From contig NZ_CP027557.1 in NCBI RefSeq assembly GCF_014854695.1, positions 2,728,001 to 2,792,000 on the forward strand: a DNA stretch of 64,000 nt, read 5' to 3'. Made by a program: the position numbers and the translations under genes. This document shows positions 9,412-26,634 of this stretch, one piece after another; the first letter of the stretch is position 1; every line of letters begins with the position of its first letter. Source of the DNA: Rhodococcus rhodochrous (GTDB lineage Bacteria; Actinomycetota; Actinomycetes; Mycobacteriales; Mycobacteriaceae). The notes below the pieces were generated by a model. It did not search any database. It saw nothing but the letters and a program-made list of their open reading frames with translations, and had not been told where the DNA came from.

Positions 9412-10221
9412 TTGTCCGTTTCATCATTGCGCCGTTTCCGTGCCGCGGTCGCCACCGCGGCCGTCCTCACCGCCGCGCTCGGCGTCGGCACCTCCGCCGC
9501 CCACGCCGACACCGCACCCACCACCCCCACCCAGACCCGTTTCCAGGAGCCCCGCGACCTGCTCCGGGCGCTCGACTTCGACGCCCTGGCCGCCGACGGC
9601 TGGACCGTGACCGACGACGAGGAAGAGGCCGAATCCGCAGAGACGACCGAGGTGGTCGAACTCGTCGCCGAGACGACTCCCGCGCCGCCCCCCGCCGTCA
9701 CACCCGAGGAGCTGGCTCGCATCGTGCCGGGCATCCCGGCGGAGAAGGTCGAGCAGTTCATCGCACCGCTGAACGACGCGATGGCGCGCAGCGGCATCGA
9801 CAACCCGGTCCGTCAGGCGGCGTTCATCGCCCAGCTGGCCGTCGAATCGGACTCCTTCCGCACCTTCGAGGAGTACGCGTCCGGTCGCGCCTACGAGGGG
9901 CGTGCCGATCTCGGCAACACCCATCCCGGCGACGGTGAGCGCTACAAGGGTCGCGGCGCGATCCAGATCACGGGCCGCCACAACTACGAGAAGGTCAGCG
10001 AGCACATCGGCGTCGACTTCGTCGCGCACCCCGAGCTGCTCGCTGCGCCGGAGAACGCCTTCACCACCGCTGCCTGGTACTGGACGTCGCGCAACCTCAA
10101 CGAGGTCGCGGATACCGCAGGAATCGTCCGGGTGTCCGAGCTCGTCAACGGCGGTCACCACGCCCTCGGTCGCCGCATCGACGACTTCAAGCGTGGTCTG
10201 GACGTGCTGCTCCAGCCGTAA
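9412..10221 (+). CDS. Secreted GH19 chitinase/endolysin-like cell-wall hydrolase
   Basis: Protein of 269 residues. Residues 1 to about 31 form a Sec signal peptide with a basic start, AAVATAAVLTAALGVG and a cut after AHA. An acidic, Pro-rich linker follows to about residue 100. The GH19/lysozyme-like domain begins near residue 105: QAAFIAQLAVESDSF with the likely catalytic Glu145, then the family signature RYKGRGAIQITGRHNY and AWYWTSRNLNEVAD. The start is a TTG with GGAG at 9400-9403, 8 nt upstream; no other start gives a proper signal peptide. It probably cuts peptidoglycan or chitin outside the cell. Confidence 0.85.
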   Translation: MSVSSLRRFRAAVATAAVLTAALGVGTSAAHADTAPTTPTQTRFQEPRDLLRALDFDALAADGWTVTDDEEEAESAETTEVVELVAETTPAPPPAVTPEELARIVPGIPAEKVEQFIAPLNDAMARSGIDNPVRQAAFIAQLAVESDSFRTFEEYASGRAYEGRADLGNTHPGDGERYKGRGAIQITGRHNYEKVSEHIGVDFVAHPELLAAPENAFTTAAWYWTSRNLNEVADTAGIVRVSELVNGGHHALGRRIDDFKRGLDVLLQP

Positions 10222-10279
10222 GCCCGACACGGTCGCACCGGGCCGATGAGTTCGGGGTGCGCCGGCGGTCTATCGGAGC

Positions 10280-10831
10280 ATGAGAAAACTGATCTACGAC
10301 TTCGGCGTGTCCCTCGACGGCTACATCAACGACCGCGACGGCAATATCGACTGGACCGACCCCGACGACGAACTGCACCAGTTCCACAACGACCGGTTCC
10401 GTCAGCTCGAGCTTTCGCTGCACGGCCGGCGGATGTACGAGCTGATGGCCGAGTACTGGCCTCACCTGCCCGAGGACGCCTCGCCCATCGAACGCGACTT
10501 TGCCGAACTGTGGACGACCACGCCGAAGGTCGTCTTCTCCCGCACCCTCACCGAGGTCCACTGGAACAGTCGTCTCGTCGGCGACGACGCGGTGGAGGAG
10601 GTGCGCAGGCTCAAGGCCGAGGGAGACGGCGTCATGGAGGTCGGTGGGGCGAACCTCGCCGCGTCGCTGATCCCGCACGGTCTCATCGACGAGTACCAGG
10701 TGTTCGTCTCACCCGTCCTGCTCGGTGGAGGGACACCGATGTTCCCGCCCCTCGAGAAGCGCGTGGATCTGCGCCTGGTCGAGACACGACAGTTCACGAC
10801 CGCCGTGATGCTCCGCTATCTCGCCGACTGA
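10280..10831 (+). CDS. Dihydrofolate reductase family protein (RibD C-terminal-like)
   Basis: Protein of 183 residues of the DHFR/RibD reductase superfamily. The N-terminal LIYDFGVSLDGYIND, the middle LHGRRMYELMAEYW, and the NADPH-binding MEVGGANLAASLIPHGLIDE are typical, as is VLLGGGTPMFPPL. It is a soluble reductase and the substrate is unknown. It is convergent with the alpha/beta hydrolase gene, whose end lies 18 bp away. Confidence 0.88.
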   Translation: MRKLIYDFGVSLDGYINDRDGNIDWTDPDDELHQFHNDRFRQLELSLHGRRMYELMAEYWPHLPEDASPIERDFAELWTTTPKVVFSRTLTEVHWNSRLVGDDAVEEVRRLKAEGDGVMEVGGANLAASLIPHGLIDEYQVFVSPVLLGGGTPMFPPLEKRVDLRLVETRQFTTAVMLRYLAD

Positions 10832-10849
10832 AAGTCCGCCGGCCGCCGC

Positions 10850-11698
10850 TCAGAAGAGCTCCGGCGTCACCGGCGGCACGTCGTCGAGGAACGCCGTCAC
10901 CATTGGCACCAGCACGTCCGCCTCTCCGGAGATGCCGAGGTGTGACATCGCCGGGAGGATCACGAGGCGTGCCCGGGGAACCTTCTGCAGCATCCCCGTC
11001 GTCGCTGCTTCCTCGTCCCCACCACCGAGCAACCGGAACATCGTCACCGCATGTTCCGGTTTCACGCCGTCCGCGTCGCCGACGATCACCATCGCGTTCG
11101 CAGTGATCGACCGCATCTGTTCGTCCGTGATCTGCTGGTCCTCGATGTTGAGGACCTTCATCTTGTCGACGTAGGCGGCGAACGCCGCGGGATCGGGCGT
11201 GTGCTCCGTGAACGACTTCTCGACCGAGGAACCGGCGAACACCTCGGCATCGAGATGTCCGACGCCCTCGAGCACCGACGCGTACCAACCGTCCTGCCGG
11301 TAGGTGGCCGACAACGTGACGAGCTTTCCGAGAAGGTCCGGATGGCGGAGCGCTACCTGCAACGCCACCCCGCCGCCCTGCGAATAGCCCATCACGTCCG
11401 CACGCTCGACGTTCAGAGCCCGCAGCAACTCCGCCGCATCGTCGCCGAACTGCACGTACGACATCGGACGATCGGTGTCCGGGGTGCGGCCGTGCCCCTG
11501 CTGATCGAAGACGATCACCGGGCGCCGTTCGGCGAAGGCGGTCACCCAGGACGGCATCGACTCGGTGCTCATGAACGCGCCGGGAATCAGCAGCAAGGGC
11601 AGCGGAGCGGACCCGCCGAGTTCGCCGTGCACCTCGAAGTACAGGCTCAGACCGTTGATGGGTAGATGTCCGCTGCGCGAGGGTGTCGAGTCCGCCAT
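10850..11698 (-). CDS. Alpha/beta hydrolase
   Basis: Protein of 282 residues with an alpha/beta-hydrolase fold. The oxyanion region is LLLIPGAFM, then VIVFDQQGHGRTPDTDRP, the nucleophile elbow GYSQGGGVA with Ser, the acid in VIVGDADGVKPEH, and the catalytic His in PAMSHLGISG. All three catalytic residues are present. The fold resembles small-molecule esterases and haloperoxidase-type hydrolases; the substrate is unknown. It lies 12 bp after the DUF899 gene on the same strand and is probably co-transcribed with it. Confidence 0.88.
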   Translation of the reverse strand: MADSTPSRSGHLPINGLSLYFEVHGELGGSAPLPLLLIPGAFMSTESMPSWVTAFAERRPVIVFDQQGHGRTPDTDRPMSYVQFGDDAAELLRALNVERADVMGYSQGGGVALQVALRHPDLLGKLVTLSATYRQDGWYASVLEGVGHLDAEVFAGSSVEKSFTEHTPDPAAFAAYVDKMKVLNIEDQQITDEQMRSITANAMVIVGDADGVKPEHAVTMFRLLGGGDEEAATTGMLQKVPRARLVILPAMSHLGISGEADVLVPMVTAFLDDVPPVTPELF

Positions 11699-11710
11699 GT
11701 CACCCGGCCT

Positions 11711-12415
11711 TCACTGCGCGCCGGTGCCGGGACCGTAGAGCCGCGCCACGTCCGGGGAATCGAGCCACCCCGAATAGGTCGGCGACTGCGGCCAGCCCTC
11801 GGGCGAATCCTGCCATTTCTCCTGACGGCCCCACGGAAGAAGGTCGATCAGCGCGAAGGTGTAGCTGAGCTGTTCGGTGCCGCGGCCGGTGGTGTGCCAG
11901 GTGCGGTAGACCTTGTCGCCGTCGCGCAGGAACACGTTGACCGCGAACCCGCCACCGGGAGGTGCGTCGACGTCGGCGCCGAACGAACTCTCCGACGACG
12001 AGTACCACTCCATCGTGTTGCCCACCTTCGCCTTGTAGGCGAGGGCTTCGTCGATCGGCCCGTTGGTGACGATGACCATGCGGGCGTCGTAGTTGTCGAG
12101 GATGCCGAGCCGGGTCCACTGCGTCGTGAGACTCGTGCATCCGCCGCACTGCCATTCGGCACCGTCGGACCACATGTGGTGATAGGTGATGAGCTGCGAG
12201 CGGCCCTGGAACACATCGACGAGCCGGATCGGGCCGTCGGCGCCGACCAGCGTGTAGTCGGGCAGTTCGACCATCGGCAGCCGGCGGCGCTGCGCTGCGA
12301 TGGCGTCTAGTTCGCGAGTGGCGGCCTTCTCCCGTCGCCGTAGGTCGTCGAGCGCCGACCGCCATGTCTGCTCGTCGACGATCGGAGGAAGGGTGCGGGT
12401 GGTCTGCTGGGTCAT
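11711..12415 (-). CDS. DUF899 thioredoxin-like protein
   Basis: Protein of 234 residues matching the DUF899 family: LITYHHMWSDGAEWQCGGCTS contains the conserved CxxC of the thioredoxin-like fold, and NVFLRDGDKVYRTWHTTGRG is the conserved C-terminal part. It is cytosolic, and a redox or dithiol role is inferred from the fold. The ATG has GGGAG upstream. The dynamin-like gene diverges from it across 136 bp. Confidence 0.88.
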   Translation of the reverse strand: MTQQTTRTLPPIVDEQTWRSALDDLRRREKAATRELDAIAAQRRRLPMVELPDYTLVGADGPIRLVDVFQGRSQLITYHHMWSDGAEWQCGGCTSLTTQWTRLGILDNYDARMVIVTNGPIDEALAYKAKVGNTMEWYSSSESSFGADVDAPPGGGFAVNVFLRDGDKVYRTWHTTGRGTEQLSYTFALIDLLPWGRQEKWQDSPEGWPQSPTYSGWLDSPDVARLYGPGTGAQ

Positions 12416-12551
12416 GACATCTCCCGGAGTCGGACGGATCCGTTCACGAATGTTGACCGGGGCGGGAGCCGGGAATCATCGCGGACGCGGCCACGAGTCC
12501 GAACGCCGGAGTGAGCACGGCCCCGTACCGGCCGGTATGTAGTGTCGTCGC

Positions 12552-14324
12552 GTGTCTCCTGATCCGTCTGTGACCGACCTGATCGACGGCGCGTGCAAGG
12601 TGCTGCGCGCCTACAAGCACGACGAGGTCGCCGACCGCGCCGAACGCAAACTGGCCGACACCGGCCGGCCGACGTCGATCGTGGTGGTGGGGGAGATCAA
12701 GCGCGGCAAGAGTCTGCTGGTCAGTGCTCTCATCGGCCGCGACGGCGCCGCTCTCGACGACGTCGAGCACTCGACCGCCGTCGCAACCCGTTTCGTCACC
12801 GCCACCGACGATTTCCCGGAGGGCACCGCCGAATTGGTGTTCCCCGACGGGCGCCGGCGCATCGACCGCGACGAGCTGGGGGAGTGGATCACCACCGGTG
12901 GCCGCTACGTCCAGGACCCGACCGTCGAGGTGCTGCCGGTCGCGGCGGTCGTGGCGATCGCGTCCGAGAAGCTCTCGAACGCGTCGGTCGTCGACACTCC
13001 CGGCATCGGCGGCCTCGACCCCCGGCACGCCGCGATGGCCGCTCACTCCGCCGATCGGGCCGCCGTGCTCGTGCTGGTGTGCGATGCGTCGACCCCGCTG
13101 ACAGAACCGGAGATGCGGTTCCTGCGCGAGAGCGCTGCCGGGGTGGAGAACGTGCTGGTCGTGGTCACCAAGACCGACAAGAACCTCACCCGCTGGGAAC
13201 AGATCGTCGCGGAGAACCGCCGCGCCGTCGCGGAACACGTCGGTCGCGACATCCCCGTCGTCGCGGTGTCGAGCGTGCGTGCCCTGGCCGCGACCGCGCT
13301 ACCGCTCTCCCCGGTGCGCGAGCGCAGCCTCGTCTGCTCCGGGCTCCCAGGACTGTGGGGGATGCTCGACGAGCGGGTCGCCGCCGCACGGCACCGCCCC
13401 GAAGCCGACGCGCTGCGCGTCGCCCTCGACGGGTTGCGACGCATCGAAACCGGAATCAGCGACGAACTCTCCGTCGTGCGCCACGGCGAATCCGCGACCC
13501 CGGACCTGACCGCCGAGATGGAACGGCTCGAGGGCCTCGAGGACGAGGCGCAGCAATGGGAACAGCACCTGCAGCGCGACCTCACCCTCGCACGGCAACG
13601 GGCGATCACCCGCCTCGACGAGGAGATCGCCCGCGTGCGCGAGGACTGGACGACACGCATCAACAAGTCGTCGATGCAGGTGCTGCGGCGCTCCCCGCAG
13701 GTGTTCACCGCCCAGATCCAGACCGACCTGCTCGACGCGATGGCCACCACCGCGCAGGTCTTCCTCGACGACCTCGAGAAGATCGTCACCGACCTCTTCG
13801 ACGACCCGCAGCAGTGGGAGCACATCCGCGAGATCACCCTCGAGGCGCTGCAGACCGATCCATTGGTGACCGGGGAGGTGGGCTCGAAACGCCAAGGGCT
13901 GCTGGATCCGAGCGTGCTGACGATGGGCATGATCGGCACCACCATGCTCGGCGCGGTGATCGGGGCCGGTGCCATCGCCGGCGTCGCCTGGGTGGCGATC
14001 AATCTCGGGTTCAAGGCGATGCGCACCGGCAAGACGAACCTGCTGACCTGGCTGCGCGAGACCCTCGCGACCGTGCGGACCGTCACGACCCGCATGCTCG
14101 AGGCCGCGATGGCCACCACCCGCCCGGAGATCGTGCTGCGTCGCCGCAAACACCTCCAGGACCGGATCACCGAGTTGCAGAAGCGTATCGACGAGGCCAA
14201 GCGCGCCGCGCGGGCGGACGCCGCGACCCGCACCGCGAACATCGAACGACTGGAGAAGAACCTGCGCATCACCCGCGCCCGCATCACCCCGATGGAGACG
14301 GCTCTGAGGGGAGGTGCCGCATGA
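12552..14324 (+). CDS. Dynamin-like GTPase, first of a pair (IniA-like)
   Basis: Protein of 590 residues. The G1 P-loop GEIKRGKSLLVSALIG is near residues 42-57, G3 is VVDTPGIGG near residue 149, and G4 is VVTKTDKN near residue 210. A helical stalk with predicted coiled coil spans about 300-450. A hydrophobic hairpin MGMIGTTMLGAVIGAGAIAGVAWVAI (shown in part) near residues 460-485 could insert in the membrane. A basic coiled coil ends the protein. This is the architecture of bacterial dynamin-like proteins such as mycobacterial IniA, which remodel membranes under envelope stress. It overlaps the next dynamin gene by four bases (ATGA), so the two are made together. Confidence 0.85.
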   Translation: MSPDPSVTDLIDGACKVLRAYKHDEVADRAERKLADTGRPTSIVVVGEIKRGKSLLVSALIGRDGAALDDVEHSTAVATRFVTATDDFPEGTAELVFPDGRRRIDRDELGEWITTGGRYVQDPTVEVLPVAAVVAIASEKLSNASVVDTPGIGGLDPRHAAMAAHSADRAAVLVLVCDASTPLTEPEMRFLRESAAGVENVLVVVTKTDKNLTRWEQIVAENRRAVAEHVGRDIPVVAVSSVRALAATALPLSPVRERSLVCSGLPGLWGMLDERVAAARHRPEADALRVALDGLRRIETGISDELSVVRHGESATPDLTAEMERLEGLEDEAQQWEQHLQRDLTLARQRAITRLDEEIARVREDWTTRINKSSMQVLRRSPQVFTAQIQTDLLDAMATTAQVFLDDLEKIVTDLFDDPQQWEHIREITLEALQTDPLVTGEVGSKRQGLLDPSVLTMGMIGTTMLGAVIGAGAIAGVAWVAINLGFKAMRTGKTNLLTWLRETLATVRTVTTRMLEAAMATTRPEIVLRRRKHLQDRITELQKRIDEAKRAARADAATRTANIERLEKNLRITRARITPMETALRGGAA

Positions 14325-15760
14325 GTGCCCCGCATACCCCACCGCAAGCCGCGCCCGATCCGATGCACCAGCGCATCGACGCGGCCCTGCACCAACTCGC
14401 CGCGCTGAGCGGCGATCTCGTCGCCCACGCCAACCGCATCGGCGCGATCCTGTGGTCGCCGCCGCGTATCGTCGTCGTCGGGCGGCTCAAGGCCGGCAAA
14501 TCCACCCTGGTGAACGCGTTGATCGGGGCGCCGGTCGCCGAGACCGCGGCGCTCGAGGCCACCAATGTCGTCACCGTCTACGAGAACGGTGCGCCCTCCC
14601 GCGCCGACGTGGTGTCCACCGATGGCACCCGCCGACCCGTGCCGCTGGCACTCGGCACCACCGTCGACCTCGGCGTCCCGCCGGAGCAGGTCGCGTACGT
14701 GCACCGCTACCTGCCCTCCCATGCGCTGAGCACCATCACCCTCGTCGACACCCCCGGTCTGGCGACACTGACTGTCACCAATGCCGCCGCAACCGAGCGC
14801 GCCCTGATCGACGGATTCGAGCAGACCCGCTCGGCGTCCGTCGACGCCGACGCGGCGGTGTTCCTGTTCGACTCGATGCCGCGCACCGACGAGGTCGAAT
14901 TTCTGCAGCGCCTCGGCTTCACTCCGCTGAACACACTCGGAGTGCTGTCGCGCGCAGACGGTTTCGGCCGTGGGGTGCTCGGCAACCGCGATCCGCTCGG
15001 ACACGCCGCCGAACACGCGAACGTGCTCGCGCGGCGGTTGGCGGGACAGGTCGGCACGGTGGTGCCGGTCGCCGGGTTGCTCGCGCAGACCTCCCACACC
15101 GGTGCGTTCACCGACGCCGACGCCCGCGCGCTCGCGGCGCTCGACCCACTGGTCCCGTTGGAGCTGTTCGATCTGCTCGACGCCGATCCGGCCGCGCTGC
15201 CGGTGCCACGCGACCAGGTGTGGCGACTGCTGGAGCTGATCGGGGAGTACGGGCTCGTGCACGCCCGCGCGCAGGCAACGGGTGGGGCGCACCAGGTCAA
15301 CCAGTGGTTGTCCGGGGTGTCCGGCGTCCATCCGCTGCGAGCGGTGCTCGAACAGTCGTTGCGTCGCTTCGCGGTGCTGCACCGCGCCGGCCGGATCCTC
15401 GCCGAACTCGACGCCCTCGTCTATTCGCATCCGGCGCGCGACGCCATCCGGCAGATCGTCTCGGCGCTGCGCACTGACCCGGCGCTGGTGCCGGTGGAGT
15501 TGTTGCGGGCGTTGCGATCTCTGCTGCAGGCCGACCCGAGCGTGCCAGCGGTCGACGAACTGGTCCAGGTGCTGCGCGGCGGCACGATCACCGAGGCGTT
15601 GGGGCTGGAGTCGACGGCGTCACCCGAGCAGATCCGAGCGATGGCGCAACAGAAGCTTGTCGCGGTGCAGGCGCAGACGGTGTCGACGCGGTCTGCGGCG
15701 GAGGACACGGCGCTGACAGCGCTTGCGCACGCTTACACGGTGATCGTCCGCGGACACTGA
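14321..15760 (+). CDS. Dynamin-like GTPase, second of a pair (IniC-like)
   Basis: Protein of 479 residues. The P-loop GRLKAGKSTLVNALIG is near residues 52-67, the G2 Thr lies in ALEATNVVTVY, G3 is LVDTPGLATL near residue 145, and the G4 position reads LSRADG rather than the usual NKxD. It lacks the hydrophobic hairpin of the upstream partner. A large plus small dynamin pair mirrors the IniA/IniC arrangement and suggests hetero-oligomerisation. The ATG overlaps the upstream stop. It is convergent with a minus-strand stress-type operon that ends 13 bp away. Confidence 0.83.
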   Translation: MSAPHTPPQAAPDPMHQRIDAALHQLAALSGDLVAHANRIGAILWSPPRIVVVGRLKAGKSTLVNALIGAPVAETAALEATNVVTVYENGAPSRADVVSTDGTRRPVPLALGTTVDLGVPPEQVAYVHRYLPSHALSTITLVDTPGLATLTVTNAAATERALIDGFEQTRSASVDADAAVFLFDSMPRTDEVEFLQRLGFTPLNTLGVLSRADGFGRGVLGNRDPLGHAAEHANVLARRLAGQVGTVVPVAGLLAQTSHTGAFTDADARALAALDPLVPLELFDLLDADPAALPVPRDQVWRLLELIGEYGLVHARAQATGGAHQVNQWLSGVSGVHPLRAVLEQSLRRFAVLHRAGRILAELDALVYSHPARDAIRQIVSALRTDPALVPVELLRALRSLLQADPSVPAVDELVQVLRGGTITEALGLESTASPEQIRAMAQQKLVAVQAQTVSTRSAAEDTALTALAHAYTVIVRGH

Positions 15761-15773
15761 CCCGGTCGGCGGG

Positions 15774-16136
15774 TTACGCGCCGAGATCGGGCTCGTCGAC
15801 GTTGTCGGTGAAGCCGAACGAGGCTGCCTCGTCGTCGGATGAAGCCTCGCCGTTGTCGTCGTCGACAAGGCCGGGGTCGGTTCCACCTGCGCTGTCGAGG
15901 TCGGCATCGGGGTCGAGGGCAGGATCGAGGTCGACAGAGTCGACGGTGACCGTCTCCGGAACGATCTCGTCGTCGTCCGGGACCAACGAGATATCGACCG
16001 CGGCAGTGCCGGGGTCGGTGGCGATGTCGAGCGCGCGCTCCCAGACCTGATCGGGCAGTTCCGGTAGGTCGGCGAGCACATCGATACCGAGCAGCTCCCC
16101 CAGTGAGGGCAGCGGATCGGTCTCATCGCTTGTCAT
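15774..16136 (-). CDS. Small acidic protein downstream of an ECF sigma factor
   Basis: Protein of 120 residues, not recognised. The ATG at 16136 was chosen for its upstream GGAAGAG. The first 50 residues (SLGELLGIDVLADLPELPDQ, then VWERALDIATDP) look helical and could fold. The rest is extremely rich in Asp and Glu and probably disordered. No membrane segment and no zinc-binding anti-sigma motif is visible. It follows the sigma gene by 89 bp on the same strand, so it may be an unconventional sigma partner or an output of that operon. The role is inferred from position only. Confidence 0.7.
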   Translation of the reverse strand: MTSDETDPLPSLGELLGIDVLADLPELPDQVWERALDIATDPGTAAVDISLVPDDDEIVPETVTVDSVDLDPALDPDADLDSAGGTDPGLVDDDNGEASSDDEAASFGFTDNVDEPDLGA

Positions 16137-16225
16137 GGGCTCTTCCTTCTTCCCCCGTTGTCCGTCGTCGTCAGGTTGGAGTCGTGCGGGCCCCGGAATG
16201 TTCCTGCCACGTCCCAATCTACCGG

Positions 16226-16771
16226 TCAGGGATCGAGACCGGCGGGATCGAGGCGGGTGGGATCGAGCAGTTCGACGAGTTGTGCTCGCCCCCGGTTGAT
16301 GCGGGTCTTGACCGTCGCGACCGGCACGTTCTGATGCTCGGCGATCTCGGCGTAACTCATCTGGGCGTATTCGCGGAGCACCACCGCGACGCGGAACTGT
16401 TCCGGGAGTTGGGCAAGCGCGTGACGCACCGCGTCGGTGTCGACGACGCGATCGGCCGGTCCCGGCACCGTGGAGGTCCGACCGAGGTCGATCTCGTCGT
16501 CGGGGATCTCACGGCGCTTGCGCACGATCGCCAGCGCGGCATTGCTCGCGATGCGATAGAGCCAGGAACCGAAGCGGGAGGTGCCCCGGAATTTGTCCAG
16601 GTTCTGCCAGGCGGCGATCAACGCGTCCTGCAGGGCGTCCTCGGCGTCGTGGCGGTTGCCGGTGATCTGCACACATACCGCCCACACCTGGGTGCGGGAC
16701 GGTTCCACCAGTGCGGCGAACGCGGCGCGGTCGCCGGACCGGCACCGCTCGATCAACTCGGTCTCGTTCAT
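16226..16771 (-). CDS. ECF-type RNA polymerase sigma factor
   Basis: Protein of 181 residues with sigma region 2 (DAEDALQDALIAAWQNLDKF, then SRFGSWLYRIASNAAL) and region 4 (LPEQFRVAVVLREYAQMSYA followed by EIAEHQNVPVATVKTRINRG). The length is normal for an ECF sigma factor. No classical membrane anti-sigma gene follows; instead a small acidic protein is downstream. A strong hairpin at 16819-16868 separates it from the lipoprotein gene upstream, so it may have its own promoter. It is a candidate regulator of the neighbouring Hsp70/dynamin module. Confidence 0.92.
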   Translation of the reverse strand: MNETELIERCRSGDRAAFAALVEPSRTQVWAVCVQITGNRHDAEDALQDALIAAWQNLDKFRGTSRFGSWLYRIASNAALAIVRKRREIPDDEIDLGRTSTVPGPADRVVDTDAVRHALAQLPEQFRVAVVLREYAQMSYAEIAEHQNVPVATVKTRINRGRAQLVELLDPTRLDPAGLDP

Positions 16772-16818
16772 GGCACCCCCATCTGTACGCGGAGTAACCT
16801 ACCCGGCCGCGTCGCGCA

Positions 16819-16868
16819 GCGGTCCGGTGACCGTCATCGGTGGCGCGCACCGACGTTCACCGGACCGC
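16819..16868. terminator. Strong hairpin between lipoprotein and sigma genes
   Basis: GCGGTCCGGTGA (16819-16830) pairs perfectly with TCACCGGACCGC (16857-16868). Inside it, TCGGTG and CACCGA can pair further. It lies just after the minus-strand DUF7373 gene. There is no clear T-run, which is common for high-GC actinobacterial terminators. Confidence 0.55.
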
Positions 16869-16876
16869 GAGGGAGG

Positions 16877-18166
16877 TCAGTTCTCACCCAGGCCCATTTC
16901 CTCGGCGCGGACGAACTTGACGTACTGCGTCGCGACGCGCTGTGGCACGGTGCGCAGGGTGTCGGAATCGGGGTTCTCGTTGCCGATCGAGCGGAAGCCG
17001 GACAGTTCGGCCATGTAGCGGCCGTAGGTCATCAGGCACGCGGCGGCTCGGCCCTCGGCGACGTCTCCCGACCAGCAGGTGGTGTTCGGAAGTCCCTGCG
17101 TCAGCGAGGGATCCTCGACGAGGTCCGGATAGGCCTCCGCCGTGTGTGCTGCGAACGCGTCCTTCAGGACCTCGGCCTCGTCGGGGCCGGCGGTGCGATA
17201 GACGACGCTGTTGACCTTCGCGACACGATCGGTGCCGGTCTGCTCGAACACCACCCCGGTGTCGGCCGGAGCGGAGTCGTAGTGCAACCAGCCGTCGGGT
17301 CCGTAGACCGCCATGTCGGAGTTACGCGAGTACTCGCTGTCGACGAATCCCACGGCTCGGGCCATCACCTTGTCCAGATCGATCGGCAGCGAGGCGATCT
17401 CGTCGGTGGGGGTGGCCGGGAACCGGTCGAGCAGTTCGATCTGCCGCTGCACGCCGCGGGTCGCGGCATCGGTGATCCACTCGGTCCCACTGCTGTCGTC
17501 GCCGCTGTAGGTGTAGACGACGAACATGCCGCGTGTGGTGAGCGTGCTCAGGGAGATGGTGTCCAGTTCCGGCCAGGAGTGGGTGGTGGCCAGCGTGTCG
17601 GGTAGCTCCGGCAGCGATATCGGGGTTTCCGGACCGGTGGCGAACGGGCCGTCCGCGGGCGCGAGCTTGTACTCGTACAGGGCCTGTGCGGCGCCGGAGG
17701 CGTCCTCGGTGGTGGGGAAGCGCCAGACACTGACACCGAATTCGCGGCTGTCGTCGTCGGTGCTCCGGAAGCTGGTGAAGGCGTTGATGATCGAGAACTC
17801 TTTCAGGATCTCGTTCTCGCTGCCGGAGAAGATGTTGCCCGTGCCGCCGAGGAACACCCCGTTGGTCGATCCGCCGACGGAGAGAGCCGGGTCGACGGTG
17901 TGCGGGTGGACGACGAACTCGGCGAGTCGCTGGCCTTCCACCGCCGGACCGAAATCCTCGGCCGCCATGCCCAGCGCAACGAAATCGCGCGGCTGGGTGT
18001 TGTAGTCACCGGTATCGAGCGAGTCGAGATCTACACCGGCAGAGGTCTGTTCGGTCGTGGTCTCGTCGACGACGGTGGCGTCGCTGTCGGAGGAGCAGCC
18101 GGCCACGGTGACGACGGTGACGGCCGCCAGGGCCAGGGCGAGACGGCCGGTTCGAGGGATGTGCAT
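16877..18166 (-). CDS. DUF7373-type lipoprotein
   Basis: Protein of 429 residues with a lipoprotein signal: basic start, LALALAAVTVVTVAGC with the lipobox VAGC near residue 24, then an acidic Ser/Thr-rich linker. The body has repeated motifs seen in the DUF7373 family of actinobacterial lipoproteins, for example FGVSVWRFPTTEDASGAAQ and WLHYDSAP. It is expected on the outer face of the membrane. Function is unknown. It sits 52 bp after the membrane-anchored Hsp70 gene, and AGGAG precedes the start. A link to extracytoplasmic sensing is inferred. Confidence 0.82.
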   Translation of the reverse strand: MHIPRTGRLALALAAVTVVTVAGCSSDSDATVVDETTTEQTSAGVDLDSLDTGDYNTQPRDFVALGMAAEDFGPAVEGQRLAEFVVHPHTVDPALSVGGSTNGVFLGGTGNIFSGSENEILKEFSIINAFTSFRSTDDDSREFGVSVWRFPTTEDASGAAQALYEYKLAPADGPFATGPETPISLPELPDTLATTHSWPELDTISLSTLTTRGMFVVYTYSGDDSSGTEWITDAATRGVQRQIELLDRFPATPTDEIASLPIDLDKVMARAVGFVDSEYSRNSDMAVYGPDGWLHYDSAPADTGVVFEQTGTDRVAKVNSVVYRTAGPDEAEVLKDAFAAHTAEAYPDLVEDPSLTQGLPNTTCWSGDVAEGRAAACLMTYGRYMAELSGFRSIGNENPDSDTLRTVPQRVATQYVKFVRAEEMGLGEN

Positions 18167-18218
18167 GAGAAGAGGACTCCTGAAGAGGAAGGTATGGAAA
18201 AGGGGAGACGGAGGGCGC

Positions 18219-20045
18219 TCAGGCGTTCCAACCGAGTTCGGCGAGCAGTGCCTCGCCGCGCTCCGTCGTCATCGAGAACTGCGCGACGAGTCCGGTGGAC
18301 TTGTCGATGACGGTGAAGTACGAGTTGCCGCCCGGTGGGTGGTCGTAGTCGGCGATGCGCGTGCCGTCCGCCGAGACGATCCTGGTGTTGTCGTTCTTGG
18401 CGTCGCGGAGCCGGATGAAGTTCGAGCGTGCGTACTGATCGTCCCGGTACGCCGACACGGATTCGTAGTCGGTGGGCTCCATGCCCAGCGCCTTCCCGAG
18501 GTTGGAATTGGGGCTGATCTGGCACCGCACCTGCATGGCACCCTCCAAGGAGAAGCCGGACTTCTCGCACGAACTCGACCCGGTGAGCAACTTGGTGGGC
18601 AGCAGTTCCACCACCTCGTCGGTGCTCTCGCTGCGATAGACCGAATCCGACGTCGCCGGAGGCGGTGCTCCGCTGTCCGACCTGTCCTCGGCCACAGCGG
18701 GGGCGGCTGCGGCGCCGGCCGACGCTCCGTCGTCCGCGTCCCCACGGGTGAGTCCGAAGACCGCCCCGGCGGCGACGAGCACCGCCAGCACGGCGCCTCC
18801 GGCGATGAGCAGGGGCCGAGACGGTCGTGACCGCTCCGTGTCGCGCGTCGTTGCCGAGTCCGGTTGTGCCGCCGGGGTACCCGGACGGGGAACGCCGGGT
18901 CGCGGTGTTGCGGGGCGGGGAGTGTCCGGCCGCAGTACCTCGGTGTCGCGGTCGGCGGCGGGTTCGGTGGTGCGTCCGCCGGCGACGAACCCTGCCGCGC
19001 CCTTGGCCACGACGGTCTTCGGGTCGTCGAGGGTGGCGATGGACCCGAGTTCGGACAGCCGCCGATGCACGTACGGGATTCGGGAGGAGCCGCCGGTCAG
19101 ATACAGCGCCTGCAGACCCGACCGGTCCACCCCGGCATCGCGCAGCACCTGGGCGGCGAGCTGCACGCCACGGGTGATCTGCGGTTCGATGAGCTGCTCG
19201 AACTCGTCGCGGGTGATGGTGAAGGTCAGGTCCGCGCCGTTGCCGGTGACCCGGATCGTCGCCGAGGGGTGCTCGGAGAGCAGTTCCTTGGCGCGGCGGA
19301 TCTGATCGTCGAGGGTGCGTCGGGCGTCGAGTCCGTCCGGGGTGTGCAACCACGCCGCCAGGTCCGGGGCGTCGTCGCGCAGGCGTTCGTCGACCCACCG
19401 GGCGACGGTGGCATCGAGGTTCTTGCCGCCGAGGGTGTTGTCGCCGCCGGCCCGGATCACCTCGAAGGTCCACTCGCTCGTCGCGGTGAGAACGGCGATG
19501 TCGAGGGTGCCGCCACCGAAGTCGAAGACCGCGATCGTCGAGCCCTTGACGATCTTCGCGTCGTGCTGGCGCGAGTAGTAGAACGCCGCGGCGCGGGGTT
19601 CGGAGATCAGCGAGACGCTGCCGCCGAGACCGGCCAGGGACGCGGCGTGCCGCAGCACGTCGAGTTCGCGCTGGGACCAGGCCTCGGGGTGGGTGAGCAC
19701 GACCTCCGCCGGAGGATGGTTGTTGTGCCGGGGCAACGCCTGGTTGTAGACGGTGCGCAGGACCGAGGCGATGGTGTGGGCGACGGGGACGTCCTGGCCG
19801 CGGACCATCACCGATCCGACCGCGACGTGGGTCTTGGGGTAGGCGACGAAGCCGGCCGGGTCCACGGTGGCCTGGTTGATGGCCACGTCGCCGGTGGTGA
19901 TCGCACCGGTGTGGTCGACGTACACCGAGGACGGCATGAGGTTGGAGGTGTGGGTCAGCGGCAGTGATTCGACCCGGTCCGGGCCGATCCGGTGTGCCGC
20001 CGACGTGTTGGACGTGCCGAAATCGACCGCCAGAACCCAGCTCAT
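18219..20045 (-). CDS. Membrane-anchored Hsp70-family ATPase
   Basis: Protein of 608 residues. The N-terminal 380 residues are an Hsp70/actin-type ATPase: phosphate-1 motif AVDFGTSNTSA, phosphate-2 AVFDFGGGTLDIAV, adenosine motif LYLTGGSSRIPYV. The usual beta-sandwich substrate-binding domain is missing. Instead there is a Pro/Thr-rich linker, one transmembrane segment LLIAGGAVLAVLVAAGAVFG near residues 420-440, and an outer domain of about 160 residues with two Cys in CEKSGFSLEGAMQVRC. The ATG at 20045 was chosen because it begins SWVLAVDFG and has GAGAGGC upstream. A mini-GrpE gene precedes it. A signalling rather than folding role is plausible. Confidence 0.88.
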   Translation of the reverse strand: MSWVLAVDFGTSNTSAAHRIGPDRVESLPLTHTSNLMPSSVYVDHTGAITTGDVAINQATVDPAGFVAYPKTHVAVGSVMVRGQDVPVAHTIASVLRTVYNQALPRHNNHPPAEVVLTHPEAWSQRELDVLRHAASLAGLGGSVSLISEPRAAAFYYSRQHDAKIVKGSTIAVFDFGGGTLDIAVLTATSEWTFEVIRAGGDNTLGGKNLDATVARWVDERLRDDAPDLAAWLHTPDGLDARRTLDDQIRRAKELLSEHPSATIRVTGNGADLTFTITRDEFEQLIEPQITRGVQLAAQVLRDAGVDRSGLQALYLTGGSSRIPYVHRRLSELGSIATLDDPKTVVAKGAAGFVAGGRTTEPAADRDTEVLRPDTPRPATPRPGVPRPGTPAAQPDSATTRDTERSRPSRPLLIAGGAVLAVLVAAGAVFGLTRGDADDGASAGAAAAPAVAEDRSDSGAPPPATSDSVYRSESTDEVVELLPTKLLTGSSSCEKSGFSLEGAMQVRCQISPNSNLGKALGMEPTDYESVSAYRDDQYARSNFIRLRDAKNDNTRIVSADGTRIADYDHPPGGNSYFTVIDKSTGLVAQFSMTTERGEALLAELGWNA

Positions 20046-20148
20046 CTCGATCGTGCCTCTCGAATGCGAACCCACAAAACCTGCATGGACGGTGCGATGA
20101 CCGTCGCGGACTCTATAGCGGCGACCGGTCGTCGCCCGGTGGCGGGTG

Positions 20149-20466
20149 TCACGACGCCCCCGGAGCCGGGCACTGCGCCGGAGGAACCTGCACCCGCACC
20201 TCGACGTAGCGCAGGATCTGCCCCTCGTGACACCAGCCGGGCCGGATCATCGCGGCGACCAGGTTCTCCTCCGCCGGTGCCGTTGCCGGCGTCACCGCCA
20301 CCGCACGGTGACGGCTCGGATCGAACCGCGTACCGGGCTCGATGGCCAGACGTTCGACCCCCAGCTCGGCGAGTCGTGCGGTCGCGGCGGCGCGCTCGGG
20401 CCCGTCCGCCGCGACGTCCGCCGCCGCGATCAGTTCGTCGATCCGCTCACGGATCTGCGGTGACAT
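20149..20466 (-). CDS. Mini-GrpE nucleotide-exchange factor
   Basis: Protein of 105 residues from the ATG at 20466. The last 65 residues carry the GrpE head signature (GVERLAIEPGTRFDPSRHRA, then GWCHEGQILRYVEVRVQ). The first 40 residues form a short helix (PQIRERIDELIAAADVAAD). Ordinary GrpE is about 180-200 residues with a long coiled coil that also reaches the substrate domain. Here that stalk is largely absent, which fits an Hsp70 partner without a substrate domain. The Hsp70 gene follows 103 bp downstream and the repeat protein lies 40 bp upstream. Confidence 0.8.
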   Translation of the reverse strand: MSPQIRERIDELIAAADVAADGPERAAATARLAELGVERLAIEPGTRFDPSRHRAVAVTPATAPAEENLVAAMIRPGWCHEGQILRYVEVRVQVPPAQCPAPGAS

Positions 20467-20506
20467 CACCTGCTTGCCCTTCGTCTCGGATCGGTCGGAG
20501 TGGTTC

Positions 20507-21262
20507 TCAGGCCAGATCGGAACCGGCGTCGGTCGACTCGGAACCGTTGTCGAAGGCCGAGACGTCGACGTAGTCGTCGGCGATGCCGTCGCCGTCGTAG
20601 TCCACCGCACCGGAGTGCAGGTCGATCACCACGTCGACCTCACCGTCGCCGTCCTCGTCGAAGACGGCCAGATCGAGGCGGCCGTCACCGTCGAGATCAC
20701 CGGCGACGGCGTCGATGTAGCCGTCGCCGTCGCGGTCGAACTCGATCAGGTCGGCGTTGCCGTCGCCGTCGGAGTCGCTGATCTGCGCGTCGGTCCTGCC
20801 GTCGCCGTCGTAGTCCACCAGCGACAGGTCGACCTGACCGTCGCCGTCCACGTCGACGTCGGCGACGCGGGTGCCGTCACCGAGGGTGTACTCGTCGAGC
20901 ACGACCGGCTCGGTGGAGGCGGATCCGGACGTCACGCTCGAGGTGGACTCGGCGTTCTCCGCGGCGGTGCGATCGGAGGCCGAGGAGGCCGATCCGGCGG
21001 AGCTCGACGCACCCGAGTTGCTCGCCGAGCCGTAGGACGAGTCCGAGCTCGAGGAGCCGGAGCTGTCGTACCGCTCGTAACGCTCGTAGGACTCGTAGCT
21101 CGTCGATCCCGACTGGTCGGCCGAAGACGAACCGTAGGAGGAGTTGCCGTCGTAGGAGGACTGCGAGCCGTACGACGAGTCCGCGCGGTCGCTTGCGGTG
21201 GACTGCGATGCGGCCCGGTCGGAGTTCGAGGAGCTGCTGCCGGGAAAGGAATTGGTAGCCAT
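20507..21262 (-). CDS. Ser/Tyr-rich low-complexity protein with DxDGDG repeats
   Basis: Protein of 251 residues. Residues 1-115 are low complexity, dominated by Ser, Gly, Tyr, Asp and Ala with repeated SSYGS, SSYDG and YERYERYD motifs. Residues 130-235 hold about seven Ca-binding-like DxDGDGxxD loops such as DVDGDGQVD, DYDGDGRTD, DRDGDGYID and DLDGDGRLD at intervals of roughly 12-16 residues. No signal peptide or membrane helix is visible, so a cytosolic location is expected unless a non-Sec route is used. AAAGAGG precedes the ATG. It heads the operon with mini-GrpE and Hsp70. Function is unknown. Confidence 0.78.
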   Translation of the reverse strand: MATNSFPGSSSSNSDRAASQSTASDRADSSYGSQSSYDGNSSYGSSSADQSGSTSYESYERYERYDSSGSSSSDSSYGSASNSGASSSAGSASSASDRTAAENAESTSSVTSGSASTEPVVLDEYTLGDGTRVADVDVDGDGQVDLSLVDYDGDGRTDAQISDSDGDGNADLIEFDRDGDGYIDAVAGDLDGDGRLDLAVFDEDGDGEVDVVIDLHSGAVDYDGDGIADDYVDVSAFDNGSESTDAGSDLA

Positions 21263-21428
21263 GGTCGGTGCCTCTTTCGGTGTCTCGGTGACTGACACAG
21301 GTAAGAGGGACCGGGAGGCGGAAAGGTTCCCGCCGAATCGAAAAAGTTTCCGAGATTCCTGATCGGCGGTGGAAACCCCAGGTCACGGCGCTGCAACCGG
21401 TCGAGGTTCGTGTCGGTCGTGGAACGCA

Positions 21429-21481: not shown

Positions 21482-22417
21482 TTACGCGCCCTGGCGGACC
21501 GGCATGCGGCGGCCCATCGTGGCGAGGGCTGCGCCGAGCACTGCGGTGGCGGCGAGTCCGGCCAGTGCCGCAAGGAATTCGGTGCCGCTGAGCGTGCCAT
21601 AATCCGCAAGGCCGGGAAGACCGGCGAAGGCAGCGTCACCGACCGGCAGCGAATAGGCACCGACGATGTGCTCGAGACCGTCCGGGCTTCCGGACGCGAC
21701 GAGCGCCAGCGCACAGGCGCTGACCACGCCCAGACCGCCGATCGCGGCGAGACCACGTCGGACGGCAACAGGAGTGACGGAGGACCGTGCGTCCCACGCG
21801 GCGACGCCGGGCGCGAACGCCATCACGGCGCTCAGCACAGCGGCGGTGATGAGAGCTTCACCTAGACCGATGGCGAGGTGGACCGCCGTCAGATTGCCGA
21901 TGAACGCTGCTGCGGCGCCGGTTCCGGCGGTCACCGAGTACGCGACGCCGAGAACCGCGGCACTCACCGGCACGGACAGACCGGCGCCGACGGCGGCGGT
22001 GGTCCGCGTCAGCTTCCCGAGGCCGAGTCGCTCGGCGCCGGTACGGACGGCGGCGGTGACGAGGACAGGCAGCACCGCCATCAGCAGCACGTTCACCCCG
22101 AGGGCGTTGATCCCGCCGTCCCCGAACAGCAATGCCTGCACGCCGACCACGGCGGTCATCGCGAGAAGGGCGAGCCGGGGCCCGAGGAGCGCGGTCGCGA
22201 GAGCGCCGCCGATGAGATGGCCGCTGATGCCGCCGGCGATGGGATAGTTGACCATCTGAGCACCGAAGATCATTGCGGCGGTCGTTCCGGCGAGAAGGGT
22301 GTCCCGGGTCGTGATGCGCGGCCGCCCGGCGGTGGCGGCGAGGACGACCGCACCGGTGGCGATCGCCGCGGCGGGCGCGGTGGCGCTCATGGGGAGGAAA
22401 TGGTCAGGGACGTGCAT
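21482..22417 (-). CDS. CbiM-like nickel/cobalt ECF permease with PDGLE tail
   Basis: Membrane protein of 311 residues. It starts MHVPDHFLP, the CbiM/NikM N-terminus in which the first residues bind the metal. The membrane part includes GAQMVNYPIAGGISGHLIGG and LGPRLALLAMTAVVG, with about seven helices. Near residue 250 is SPDGLEHIVGAYSLP, the PDGLE/CbiN-type module. It overlaps the end of ureD by 14 bp. With urease upstream, nickel is the likely ion. No ATPase (NikO) or T-component (NikQ) gene is next to it. Confidence 0.83.
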   Translation of the reverse strand: MHVPDHFLPMSATAPAAAIATGAVVLAATAGRPRITTRDTLLAGTTAAMIFGAQMVNYPIAGGISGHLIGGALATALLGPRLALLAMTAVVGVQALLFGDGGINALGVNVLLMAVLPVLVTAAVRTGAERLGLGKLTRTTAAVGAGLSVPVSAAVLGVAYSVTAGTGAAAAFIGNLTAVHLAIGLGEALITAAVLSAVMAFAPGVAAWDARSSVTPVAVRRGLAAIGGLGVVSACALALVASGSPDGLEHIVGAYSLPVGDAAFAGLPGLADYGTLSGTEFLAALAGLAATAVLGAALATMGRRMPVRQGA

Positions 22418-23135
22418 GGGTGAGACTCCCTTCGAGGGTGGACGGGTGAACGTGTGCGGAGCGCCAGGAGCGCCAGGTCGACTCGAGCGGCGAGGAGTGG
22501 GTATAGGCACCGAGGAACCGCAGCAGGTTGCCGGGCCCTTCGAGCTGGACGACGCCGTCGCCCTCGGCGCGTCGCCCGTAGGTTGCGATGACGTCGTGCA
22601 CCCGGGCGGAACCGAGGATCCCGGGCTCGGGGAACGCGCCGTGCGCGTACAACTCCTCGACGAAGAGGGGACGACGATCGAGAGTGACCGAGGTACGGCT
22701 GCGGATCGCACCCCCGCTTTCTCCGTGGCGCCCGAGGACGAGGGTCTCCCGCATGCTCGCGGCGGCGTCGGAGGCGAGTTCGATCCGGGTGTCGCGGTGC
22801 ACGCGGGCGCCGGTGGCGATCACGAACGGGTAGGTGTCCCAGACGAGGGTGCCGCCCTCGGCGACGGTGATCCGCACGTCCCACCGGGACAGCCGGTTGT
22901 CGGCGTCGTAGGCGACGGTGCCCCCGATGTCCTGCAGTTCGAGTGTGCACCCGACGTCGACGTGGACGTCGACGGTCACCGCGTCACCACCGAGCAACAA
23001 CGCGCCGGCGGCGACGACGGCGACCCGCGCGTGGTCCGGACCGACCTCGACCGTGCGGGGGACGAGCATGCCCGCCCGCAGGGTCAGGCGTGCCCGGCCC
23101 GGTGCGCGGTCGATACGGATCGTGGTGCGGGACAT
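22404..23135 (-). CDS. ureD: Urease accessory protein UreD
   Basis: Protein of 243 residues matching UreD/UreH: RARLTLRAGMLVPRTVEVGP, GCTLELQDIGGTVAYDAD, VWDTYPFVIATGA and GPGNLLRFLGAYTH. UreD docks on the urease apoprotein and helps deliver nickel from UreG. It is cytosolic. It follows ureG by 2 bp and overlaps the start of the nickel permease gene, so all are in one operon. Confidence 0.88.
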   Translation of the reverse strand: MSRTTIRIDRAPGRARLTLRAGMLVPRTVEVGPDHARVAVVAAGALLLGGDAVTVDVHVDVGCTLELQDIGGTVAYDADNRLSRWDVRITVAEGGTLVWDTYPFVIATGARVHRDTRIELASDAAASMRETLVLGRHGESGGAIRSRTSVTLDRRPLFVEELYAHGAFPEPGILGSARVHDVIATYGRRAEGDGVVQLEGPGNLLRFLGAYTHSSPLESTWRSWRSAHVHPSTLEGSLTHARP

Positions 23136-23137
23136 GA

Positions 23138-23899
23138 TCAGTCGTGCGTGTGTGCGACGGCGTGATCGTGCCCGTGCCCGTGCCCGTGCCCGTGCCCGTG
23201 GCTGTGGTCGTGGTCGTCCTCGTCGGCGTGGAAGTGCGGAGCCATCGGACCGGGATCGACCGGGGTGTGCGACCCGGCGCGGTGGGCTGCCAGCATCTCG
23301 CGCACCCAGTCGCCGAGCGCCTGCACGGATGAGGCGTCGGTCCGCGACAGCGCCAGCACCGGTCCGCCCTCGCGGGCCTTCTCGGCGTCGGCGACCATCT
23401 GCGGCACGTCGACACCCACATAGGGGGAGAGATCGGTCTTGTTCACCACGAGCAGGTCGGCGCGGCTGATGCCGGGACCGCCCTTGCGGGCGACGTCGCC
23501 ACCGCCCGCGACATCGAGCACGAAGATCTGCGCGTCGACGAGCGCGGGGGAGAAGGTCGCGGTGAGGTTGTCGCCGCCGCTCTCCACCAGGACGACATCG
23601 AGCGGCGCGAAGTCGCGTTCGAGATCCTCGACGGCCAGCAGGTTCATGGTCACGTCGTCACGGATCGCGGTGTGCGGGCACGCACCGGTCTCCACCGCGC
23701 GGATGCGCTCGGGATCGAGCACGCCCGCCGAGCGGAGGAAGCGCGCGTCCTCGTCGGTGTAGATGTCGTTGGTGATCACGCCGAGCTGCAGCTCGGACGC
23801 GAGGGTGCGGCAGATCGTCGCGATCAGCGAACTCTTGCCCGTGCCGACGGGACCGGCGACGCCGAGACGGAGCGAACGGGTGGTGGTGTGTTCAGGCAC
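23138..23899 (-). CDS. ureG: Urease accessory GTPase UreG with His-rich tail
   Basis: Protein of 253 residues from a GTG. The P-loop is [19 protein letters not shown]. The nickel and dimer region reads [15 protein letters not shown] with the conserved CPH, followed by [11 protein letters not shown] and [11 protein letters not shown]. The C-terminus carries a run of alternating His and Gly ([13 protein letters not shown]), which is unusual because UreG normally has a short His stretch at its N-terminus or none. With no ureE in the window, this tail may store nickel in its place. The start overlaps the end of ureF by 8 bp. Confidence 0.92.
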
Positions 23900-26287: not shown

Positions 26288-26291
26288 GTTC

Positions 26292-26621
26292 TCAGTCCTC
26301 CTGCTTCCGCACCTGGATGCCGGGTACGACGCGTTGTCCGCGCAGGGCGACGGCACCCAGCTCGCGGCTGCTGCCGGGTTCGAAGCGCTGCGAGGTCCCC
26401 GACGGGATGTCCAGGCGGAAGCCCTGCGCGCGTTCGCGGTCGAATTCGAGGGCCGCATTCGCGTCCGGCAGGTGGATGTGTGAGCCGATCTGGATGGGAC
26501 GATCCCCGGTGTTGAGGAAGACGAGGGTGATGCGCTCGTCGTCGGAGCGGTCCGCGTTGAGGGTGAGGGAGCCCTCGGCGACGCGAATCGCTCCGGGTCC
26601 CGAAGTCGGTCCGGATGCCAT
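26292..26621 (-). CDS. ureB: Urease beta subunit UreB
   Basis: Protein of 109 residues with family motifs [24 protein letters not shown] (here [18 protein letters not shown]), [20 protein letters not shown] and [10 protein letters not shown]. It packs with UreA and UreC in the urease core. It follows ureA by 13 bp and precedes ureC by 4 bp. Confidence 0.93.
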
Positions 26622-26634
26622 GTCGGGGCTCCTT

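Follow-up and report, generated by a model that had tools for sequence, protein, structure and literature searches.

A conserved dynamin and Hsp70 gene block of Rhodococcus and its relatives suggests an undescribed membrane-remodelling machine

An eight-gene block of Rhodococcus rhodochrous (NCBI RefSeq assembly GCF_014854695.1, contig NZ_CP027557.1) is conserved in other actinobacteria and suggests an undescribed machine that reshapes or mends the cell membrane. The block lies at 12552..21262 of a stretch of 64,000 nucleotides (positions 2,728,001 to 2,792,000 of the forward strand), which is called the window here and to which all coordinates without a locus name refer. Two dynamin-like GTPases, dyn1 and dyn2, are combined with a transmembrane Hsp70, a GrpE reduced to its head domain, a DUF7373 lipoprotein, an extracytoplasmic function (ECF) sigma factor, an acidic protein and a DxDGDG-repeat protein (DGD protein). 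The block is read as an ECF-controlled membrane-remodelling machine of the IniA/IniC type with its own transmembrane Hsp70 switch, an interpretation held with about even confidence. The module and its regulon are well supported; we infer the mechanism and the role in stress. The parts, the predicted topology, joint inheritance, a gene fusion, gene coupling and a shared promoter were established from sequence.

Gene content of the block

The initial annotation had named eight genes and their domains. Reading of the open reading frames (ORFs) and domain searches recovered all eight as ORFs, with these domains in these places. On the plus strand, dyn1 (12552..14324, 590 amino acids) and dyn2 (14321..15760, 479 amino acids) overlap by 4 bases. 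A minus-strand row of six genes ends 13 bases past the dynamins. It encodes the DGD protein (20507..21262), the mini-GrpE (20149..20466, 105 amino acids), the transmembrane Hsp70 (18219..20045, 608 amino acids), the DUF7373 lipoprotein (16877..18166, 429 amino acids), the ECF sigma factor (16226..16771, 181 amino acids) and the acidic protein (15774..16136, 120 amino acids). Because the gaps within this row measure only 40 to 105 bases, a single transcript from the promoter of the DGD gene is predicted to be possible. A simple coding-bias caller also found seven of the eight genes, with a third-position GC of 0.79-0.90, while dyn2 was masked there by overlapping frames. The genome measures 6.09 Mb, of which the contig with the module makes up 5.46 Mb, and the closest relatives of the window among the matches listed belong to Rhodococcus.

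Joint inheritance

The Hsp70, dyn1, dyn2 and the sigma factor were searched in 121 genomes of the family; the cut-offs that delimit 36 genomes were set after the gaps in the E-values had been seen. Strong matches to dyn1 and Hsp70 occurred in an identical set of 36 of the 121 genomes (script comparison) and were absent from the other 85. These 36 genomes match dyn1 at 2e-67 or better (next 3e-28) and Hsp70 at 2.4e-58 or better, with weaker Hsp70 matches of 1e-37 to 1e-45 in G011, G041 and G050. For dyn2, 36 genomes match at 9e-47 or better (next 7e-35), and the genome set was compared by eye. The block had been proposed as a conserved unit, against which a rare joint occurrence of dynamin pair and Hsp70 was to count; the searches gave the opposite. 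Fisher tests of co-occurrence yielded 1.3e-31 and 6.9e-24, phylogeny being ignored. Dyn1 and Hsp70 are found within 20 kb of each other in 31/36 genomes and on separate contigs in four (G026, G073, G113, G055). In G042, dyn1 is split across both ends of one contig, which may be a circular replicon opened within the gene. The window genus carries the module in three of eight genomes, and presence and absence are found side by side inside several genera.

The sigma clade was detected in 40 genomes, comprising 35 of the 36 module genomes (not G027) and five of the 85 others. In some module genomes, e.g. G079, the sigma gene is located on another contig. Among the five genomes with the sigma factor only, G066, a member of the same genus, has the lipoprotein, sigma factor and acidic genes and nothing else of the module (L175:9426-12097), and the other four show no labelled module gene beside the sigma gene. 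Homologues of the acidic protein occur in at least 18/36 module genomes, often beside the sigma gene. Such gene counts in the fetched stretches of the 36 genomes are lower bounds, as overlapping frames and contig ends masked some genes (e.g. dyn2 of the window).

Named loci among the matches listed belong to Rhodococcus, Gordonia, Williamsia, Skermania, Millisia, Corynebacterium, Smaragdicoccus, Gulosibacter and Actinomadura. From the 80 loci among these matches, 27 (L093-L119) were mapped, and the other 53 are mostly from other phyla; dynamins were labelled in 17 of the 27. Outside the family, a dynamin pair stands beside an Hsp70 of the module kind in Actinomadura (L116, L117) and Gulosibacter (L111, L112). 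In 296 genomes sampled across the phylum, a query with the Actinomadura-type Hsp70 identified two relatives at 1e-40, both adjoining a dynamin pair. Among 72,556 plasmid records searched at E 1e-40, dyn1 was present in 33 and Hsp70 in 39, with 32 in common (by eye). All carriers are Rhodococcus, Prescottella or Gordonia. Plasmid pRJH1 (L192:5037-11583) harbors a partial module of DGD, GrpE, Hsp70, lipoprotein and sigma genes, and no dyn1 was found in the record at 1e-40. There, IS3 elements flank the sigma gene on both sides and the Hsp70 is annotated as two pieces.

The dynamin pair

For both dynamins, the best match among solved structures is IniA of Mycobacterium smegmatis (6j72), with E 1.5e-17 over residues 7-340 of dyn1 and 3.6e-6 for dyn2. 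The Pfam domain Dynamin_N is matched by dyn1 (1.6e-12) and by dyn2 (6.9e-10). The latter, a second dynamin-like GTPase in the position of IniC, also matches MMR_HSR1 (4.7e-10). IniA binds and cuts membranes in vitro with GTP (PMC6715688).

The transmembrane Hsp70 and the lipoprotein

The Pfam HSP70 match (1e-32, profile 106-369 of 599) ends with the ATPase domain, so the substrate-binding part is unmatched. All following features of the protein lie on the minus strand. The ATPase domain comprises residues 1-351 (18993..20045). It is followed by a proline-rich linker, one hydrophobic stretch, and 178 further residues. The hydrophobic stretch (residues 412-430, 18756..18812) has a mean hydropathy of 2.57 over 19 residues and is predicted to form a membrane helix; residues 431-608 (18222..18755) would form an outer domain. 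Ordinary chaperoning appears unlikely for this protein, because the substrate-binding domain is absent. In an alignment of 27 of the 42 listed proteins of this kind, D8, T11, K71, E149, D175, T180, D182, G318 and G319 (window numbering) are invariant, and the catalytic residues of the window protein are intact. Among the invariant residues are the counterparts of D8, T11, K70, E171, D194, T199 and D201 of DnaK. A hydrophobic stretch of at least 2.15 lies behind the ATPase domain in 27/27 of the aligned proteins; in L070 it is far closer to the C-terminus than in the others. The outer tails were aligned for 21 of the 27 proteins, L045, L058, L060, L068, L070 and L071 having been dropped beforehand, and two cysteines and one proline are invariant.

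Some loci carry several Hsp70 genes of the module kind. Three in tandem adjoin the dynamins in L040:7862-13453, and two occur in L098, in L119 and on plasmid pLRE138. Multiple copies may present different outer domains to one dynamin pair. An ORF of 1256 amino acids in Gulosibacter L112 was considered as an Hsp70-dynamin fusion and rejected, as its first half proved to be the Hsp70 gene read in a different frame.

The lipoprotein matches Pfam DUF7373 (4.6e-40) and DUF7373_C (3.3e-14). It has the lipobox VAGC, the cysteine of which (C24) is nearly invariant in 17 aligned rows. In two species of Smaragdicoccus, the Hsp70 has 920-921 amino acids, with a whole DUF7373 fused behind the membrane helix, at the place of the outer domain. 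The fusion protein of Smaragdicoccus niigatensis (L068, the same locus as L110) contains the DUF7373 domains by Pfam (1.5e-38 and 4e-20), and blast links were obtained for L068 and L069. No separate DUF7373 gene was labelled in the 20-kb stretches around the fusion loci. Hsp70 and DUF7373 were joined in single-linkage clusters; the fusion proteins were the cause and were confirmed to be real. Since DUF7373 is a lipoprotein elsewhere, the fusion supports the predicted topology of an inner ATPase and an outer tail and connects the lipoprotein with the Hsp70. It also supports the link between both proteins outside the membrane, part of the original proposal.

The mini-GrpE and gene coupling

The match of the mini-GrpE is confined to the end of the GrpE profile (Pfam 2.2e-7, 105-163 of 165), and the long N-terminal dimerising helices are not matched. 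A homologue of the same length, 105 amino acids, on plasmid pRJH1 is annotated as 'nucleotide exchange factor GrpE' by NCBI. A membrane helix is predicted ahead of the GrpE head in nine loci (L054, L068, L069, L071, L078, L087, L098, L110, L119), of which L110 and L068 are one locus and L071 and L078 derive from one genome. No such helix is predicted in the window, L033, L093 and the Actinomadura loci L116 and L117.

The GrpE head gene is placed between dyn1 and dyn2 in L098, in L119 and on plasmid pLRE138. The latter encodes a dynamin (8402-10225), a protein of 160 amino acids (10222-10704) identified as GrpE head by profile (2e-30), a GTPase (10701-12146) and an Hsp70 (12143-13924), each overlapping the next by 4 bases. 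Rhodococcus L119 has the order dyn1-GrpE-dyn2-Hsp70 with 4-base overlaps like those of pLRE138, and in L098 GrpE and dyn2 abut. Coupling of genes by 4-base overlaps is typical for subunits of one machine.

Sigma factor, shared promoter and repeat protein

The sigma protein has the build of an ECF factor. Region 2 (Sigma70_r2, 1.9e-17) and region 4 (Sigma70_r4_2, 5e-16) are both matched, and the protein contains little else. The adjoining acidic protein gave no family match up to E 1. It is a candidate partner of the sigma factor and its likeliest regulator.

A spaced word-pair search upstream of 221 module genes placed GGAAC-N16-GCAT among the first ranks. The search was led by CGACG-type words; the GGAAC-GCAT pair (ranks 4 and 5) was chosen for its likeness to ECF promoters and then tested by a spacer scan and by scrambled words. 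In 845 kb of loci, GGAAC-Nk-GCATC occurs at 44 sites with k=16 and at 32 sites with k=17, and at 0-4 sites for twelve other spacers between 10 and 23. Six scrambled word pairs gave 0-4 sites each and the reversed pair four. The k=16 sites lie outside called genes in 28/44 cases, though called genes make up 81% of the bases. Counted per gene and genome, sites precede the DGD gene in 17/24, the lipoprotein gene in 9/18, the acidic gene in 6/17, the Hsp70 gene in 5/34 and the GrpE gene in 2/7. Control regions inside genes contained zero sites, except for the sigma gene (2/31). The per-gene counts use a looser pattern that admits the variant of the window genus and was composed after the variant had been seen, and are thus partly circular.

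A weight matrix built on 52 sites found at other loci was applied to both strands of the window. The highest score, 21.5, belongs to a site 5' of the DGD gene (21298..21333, minus strand), the second, 14.4, to a site 5' of the acidic gene (16172..16207, minus strand), and the third is 7.1. One of ten shuffles gave 20.6; among 60 larger shuffles, six sites reached 14.4 and none 21.4. By these shuffles, a site as good as that of the acidic gene would arise by chance in about one window in ten, and the position of the latter adds weight. A pattern composed from the two window sites, and partly circular because these had been seen before, fits the genome perfectly at exactly two places, both within the window, and with one mismatch at three places elsewhere; the backward control gave none. 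The sigma factor probably reads the GGAAC-N16/17-GCATC promoter, as their company suggests. Taken with co-occurrence and the fusion, the promoter indicates that the grouping of the module is far from chance. The shared promoter also precedes another family of low-complexity proteins, starting with MTTPAPQN (L052:18425, plus strand; L075:9000, minus strand), which are perhaps further members of the regulon, or IniB-like.

The DGD protein has a Ser/Tyr-rich N-terminus. Its start is probably the ATG at 21262, where the relative in L033 starts; an upstream GTG at 21298 is possible. Family searches returned no family above the cut-off and no match to the IniB N-terminal domain. No strongly hydrophobic stretch was found in the DGD proteins of the window, L033, L037, L052, L077, L093 and L106. 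Several DGD proteins share a C-terminus, an acidic stretch ending in D-L/M-A/V or similar, which may be an export or docking tag. Gulosibacter L111:14429-18236 carries three consecutive DGD-repeat genes, each with its own promoter copy.

Relation to iniBAC and other known systems

The same genome harbors a second dynamin locus (G000:C1:4436000-4443900; L074:476-7892). It encodes an IniB-domain protein (NF038175, E 2.8e-21), an IniA-like and an IniC-like protein, and a divergent membrane Hsp70-like protein with replaced catalytic residues. The ATPase part of this protein was used as a query (E about 1e-30 or better). An Hsp70-like gene of this ini type was located within 15 kb of an ini-type dyn2 match in 58/68 family genomes, with the second locus described above among them. 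In the remaining ten, five had no match at the cut-off, three had the gene on another contig, and two had it at distances of 16.8 and 17.8 kb. Ini-type Hsp70-like proteins were compared in 29 matches from 27 genomes (20 genomes hand-picked to span the match list, and seven loci). At least one of six core catalytic residues is changed in 28 of them, one of these being a fragment with gaps at three of the six, and L083 keeps all. The commonest loss affects the D8, K70 and T199 positions together. A helix is predicted behind the ATPase part in 27/29. The genes in L079, L090 and L091, considered as further ini-type representatives, were rejected, as they are not matches of the ini-type query; the Hsp70s of L079 and L091 are probably DnaK, because they stand beside genes of GrpE and DnaJ size. 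The ini-type neighbours indicate that the company of dynamins and Hsp70 is wider than the window module, which represents the lineage with an intact ATPase. The decayed version suggests that binding and anchoring are no less important than ATP cycling.

Among mycobacterial promoters, that of iniBAC is described as showing the strongest and most specific induction by ethambutol and isoniazid (PMC5760070). Like iniBAC, the window block has a pair of neighbouring dynamin-like GTPases, of which the first is related to IniA, and a low-complexity repeat protein alongside. The DGD protein, however, lacks the IniB N-terminal domain (NF038175), and the block includes in addition an ECF sigma factor, a GrpE head and a DUF7373 lipoprotein. 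The catalytic residues of its Hsp70 are complete, unlike those of 28/29 ini-type proteins. As a search for the IniB domain in the DGD protein found none, the block was classed as a variant of iniBAC-like dynamin systems and not as iniBAC. An ATPase domain with the catalytic set intact and a GrpE head domain recall the DnaK-GrpE pair. The Hsp70 of the window differs from DnaK in its membrane helix and outer domain and in the lack of a substrate-binding domain. GrpE of the module has no long helices and is predicted to be membrane-anchored in several genera, and a domain search identified none of the eight window proteins as DnaJ.

IniA/IniC dynamins, DnaK/GrpE, DUF7373 and ECF factors are known singly. 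The initial annotation had called the combination undescribed. This holds insofar as none of the titles and abstracts listed from an open-licence library dealt with a module of dynamins and Hsp70; most subscription journals and preprints lie outside that library, and no search was made of the supplementary tables of ECF classifications. It needs qualification insofar as iniBAC is known and a single sentence of a 2017 paper (PMC5760070) mentions a dnaK-like gene adjoining iniR in M. smegmatis.

Proposed mechanism

The Hsp70 tail and the lipoprotein would form one outer assembly at the interface of membrane and wall. The state of this assembly would be relayed via the helix to the ATPase domain. 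Cycling between ATP and ADP, reset by the mini-GrpE where present, would load or strip the dynamins at the inner face. Hsp70s elsewhere drive the assembly and disassembly of protein coats. Driven by GTP hydrolysis, the dynamins would cut, seal or bud the membrane in the manner of IniA in vitro. The sigma factor would raise the expression of the DGD-GrpE-Hsp70-lipoprotein genes and of the acidic gene under envelope stress, a signal that is suggested by analogy with iniBAC. The DGD protein might hold the place of IniB in iniBAC, perhaps as a scaffold.

A wider proposal is put forward tentatively, and it may well prove wrong. Dynamin pairs of the IniA/IniC kind in actinobacteria would depend on a partner, a membrane Hsp70 joined to a lipoprotein on the outside, which would serve as their dedicated loader and unloader and thereby as a transmembrane switch. 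It would be driven by ATP in the lineage of the window and equipped with its own membrane-bound exchange factor in some relatives; at ini-type loci it would have turned into a non-catalytic membrane adaptor that retains the Hsp70 fold, or be missing.

Several observations weigh against the machine as read here. Control by the ECF factor, as first proposed, is backed by at least one promoter site before module genes in 23/36 genomes, but no site was found in 13/36. Sites precede dyn1 in 4/31 genomes, and dyn2 (0/31) and the sigma gene (0/29) in none. In the window, sites are confined to the DGD and acidic genes, and there is no ECF site before the dynamins or the sigma gene. Co-occurrence with the Hsp70 gene had been proposed as a check for both the dynamin pair and the mini-GrpE. 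The dynamins are present in all 36 genomes with the Hsp70; a GrpE head was found near the module in at least 7/36 genomes (fetched stretches), and GrpE is an accessory. Ten of the 27 mapped loci have the Hsp70 without labelled dynamins in the stretch covered (L097, L099, L100, L102, L104, L107, L108, L109, L114, L115); L107-L109 are contigs of less than 7 kb, and L099 and L100 match G090 and G074, where the dynamins are about 15 kb off. On plasmids, 7/39 Hsp70 records, pRJH1 included, are without such a dynamin, and 1/33 dyn1 records is without Hsp70. The decay of 28/29 ini-type Hsp70-like proteins implies that the partnership at those loci does not depend on ATP cycling.

Alternative explanations

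The main target of the Hsp70 may be the sigma factor or its acidic partner, the dynamins being one output of several. DnaK of Escherichia coli acts on sigma-32, which it holds with its substrate-binding domain. This explanation agrees with the position of the sigma and acidic genes next to the Hsp70 block, with the lipoprotein-sigma-acidic group of L175, which stands without Hsp70 and dynamins, and with the promoters, most frequent before the DGD, lipoprotein and acidic genes. However, the Hsp70 of the window lacks a substrate-binding domain, the closest coupling observed among the genes joins Hsp70, dynamins and GrpE, and the Hsp70-dynamin neighbourhoods of L190 and L191 are without this sigma factor within a 20-kb stretch. 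A circuit of this kind is considered unlikely.

Defence against phages or plasmids is given an equally low probability. The dynamins would shield or seal the membrane once phages have attacked, with Hsp70 and lipoprotein sensing surface damage. A scan of the eight module proteins with PADLOC connected the dynamin pair to the defence candidates LeoA and LeoBC. Dyn1 matches LeoBC at 5.6e-16 over residues 14-578 and also LeoA; dyn2 matches LeoA at 4.1e-7, yet no single stretch passes alone. The patchy distribution (36/121 genomes, with and without the module inside single genera) and the 32 plasmid records with both dyn1 and Hsp70 would also suit defence. IniA matches dyn1 comparably, though, and the other six proteins (Hsp70, GrpE, lipoprotein, sigma, acidic and DGD) have no PADLOC match at 0.001. 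Pfam detected no toxin or nuclease domain among the eight proteins, and a regulon under an ECF factor that includes a lipoprotein and repeat proteins would seem to suit stress physiology better.

As a plasmid accessory, the module would maintain the envelope at mating junctions or offset envelope stress caused by transfer. The complete module on the linear plasmid pLRE138 and the plasmid records with dyn1 (33) and Hsp70 (39) fit this explanation. It is nevertheless quite improbable. The module sits here on the 5.46-Mb contig, the 33 dyn1 plasmids were typed as 22 mobilizable, 10 non-mobilizable and one conjugative, and gene clusters outside the module recur in at most 9/61 loci, where the clusters were not identified and no search was aimed at transfer genes.

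That the genes merely travel together, with no common function, is highly improbable despite the parts standing apart in pRJH1 (no dynamins), L175 (no Hsp70 or dynamins), plasmid CP096038 (dyn1, no such Hsp70) and G073 (two contigs), given the identical 36/121 genomes, the presence and absence inside several genera, the reshuffled order with membership kept, the 4-base overlaps, the fusion and the shared promoter.

Outside the block, genes at 22404-26986 of the window resemble a urease cluster (by eye only, no search).

Significance

A membrane-remodelling machine with its own Hsp70 switch would bear on the iniBAC system. The roles of IniC and IniB and the control of IniA are open, and IniC was unstable after purification and was not studied by the authors of the IniA structure (PMC6715688). 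The conserved Hsp70-like neighbour offers a testable reason and a missing component. The decayed Hsp70 at ini-type loci provides a natural comparison, and the predicted promoter is a direct handle on the signal of the module. If the reading is true, an Hsp70 that has a membrane helix instead of its substrate domain and is linked to dynamins would put the Hsp70 ATPase to a new use.

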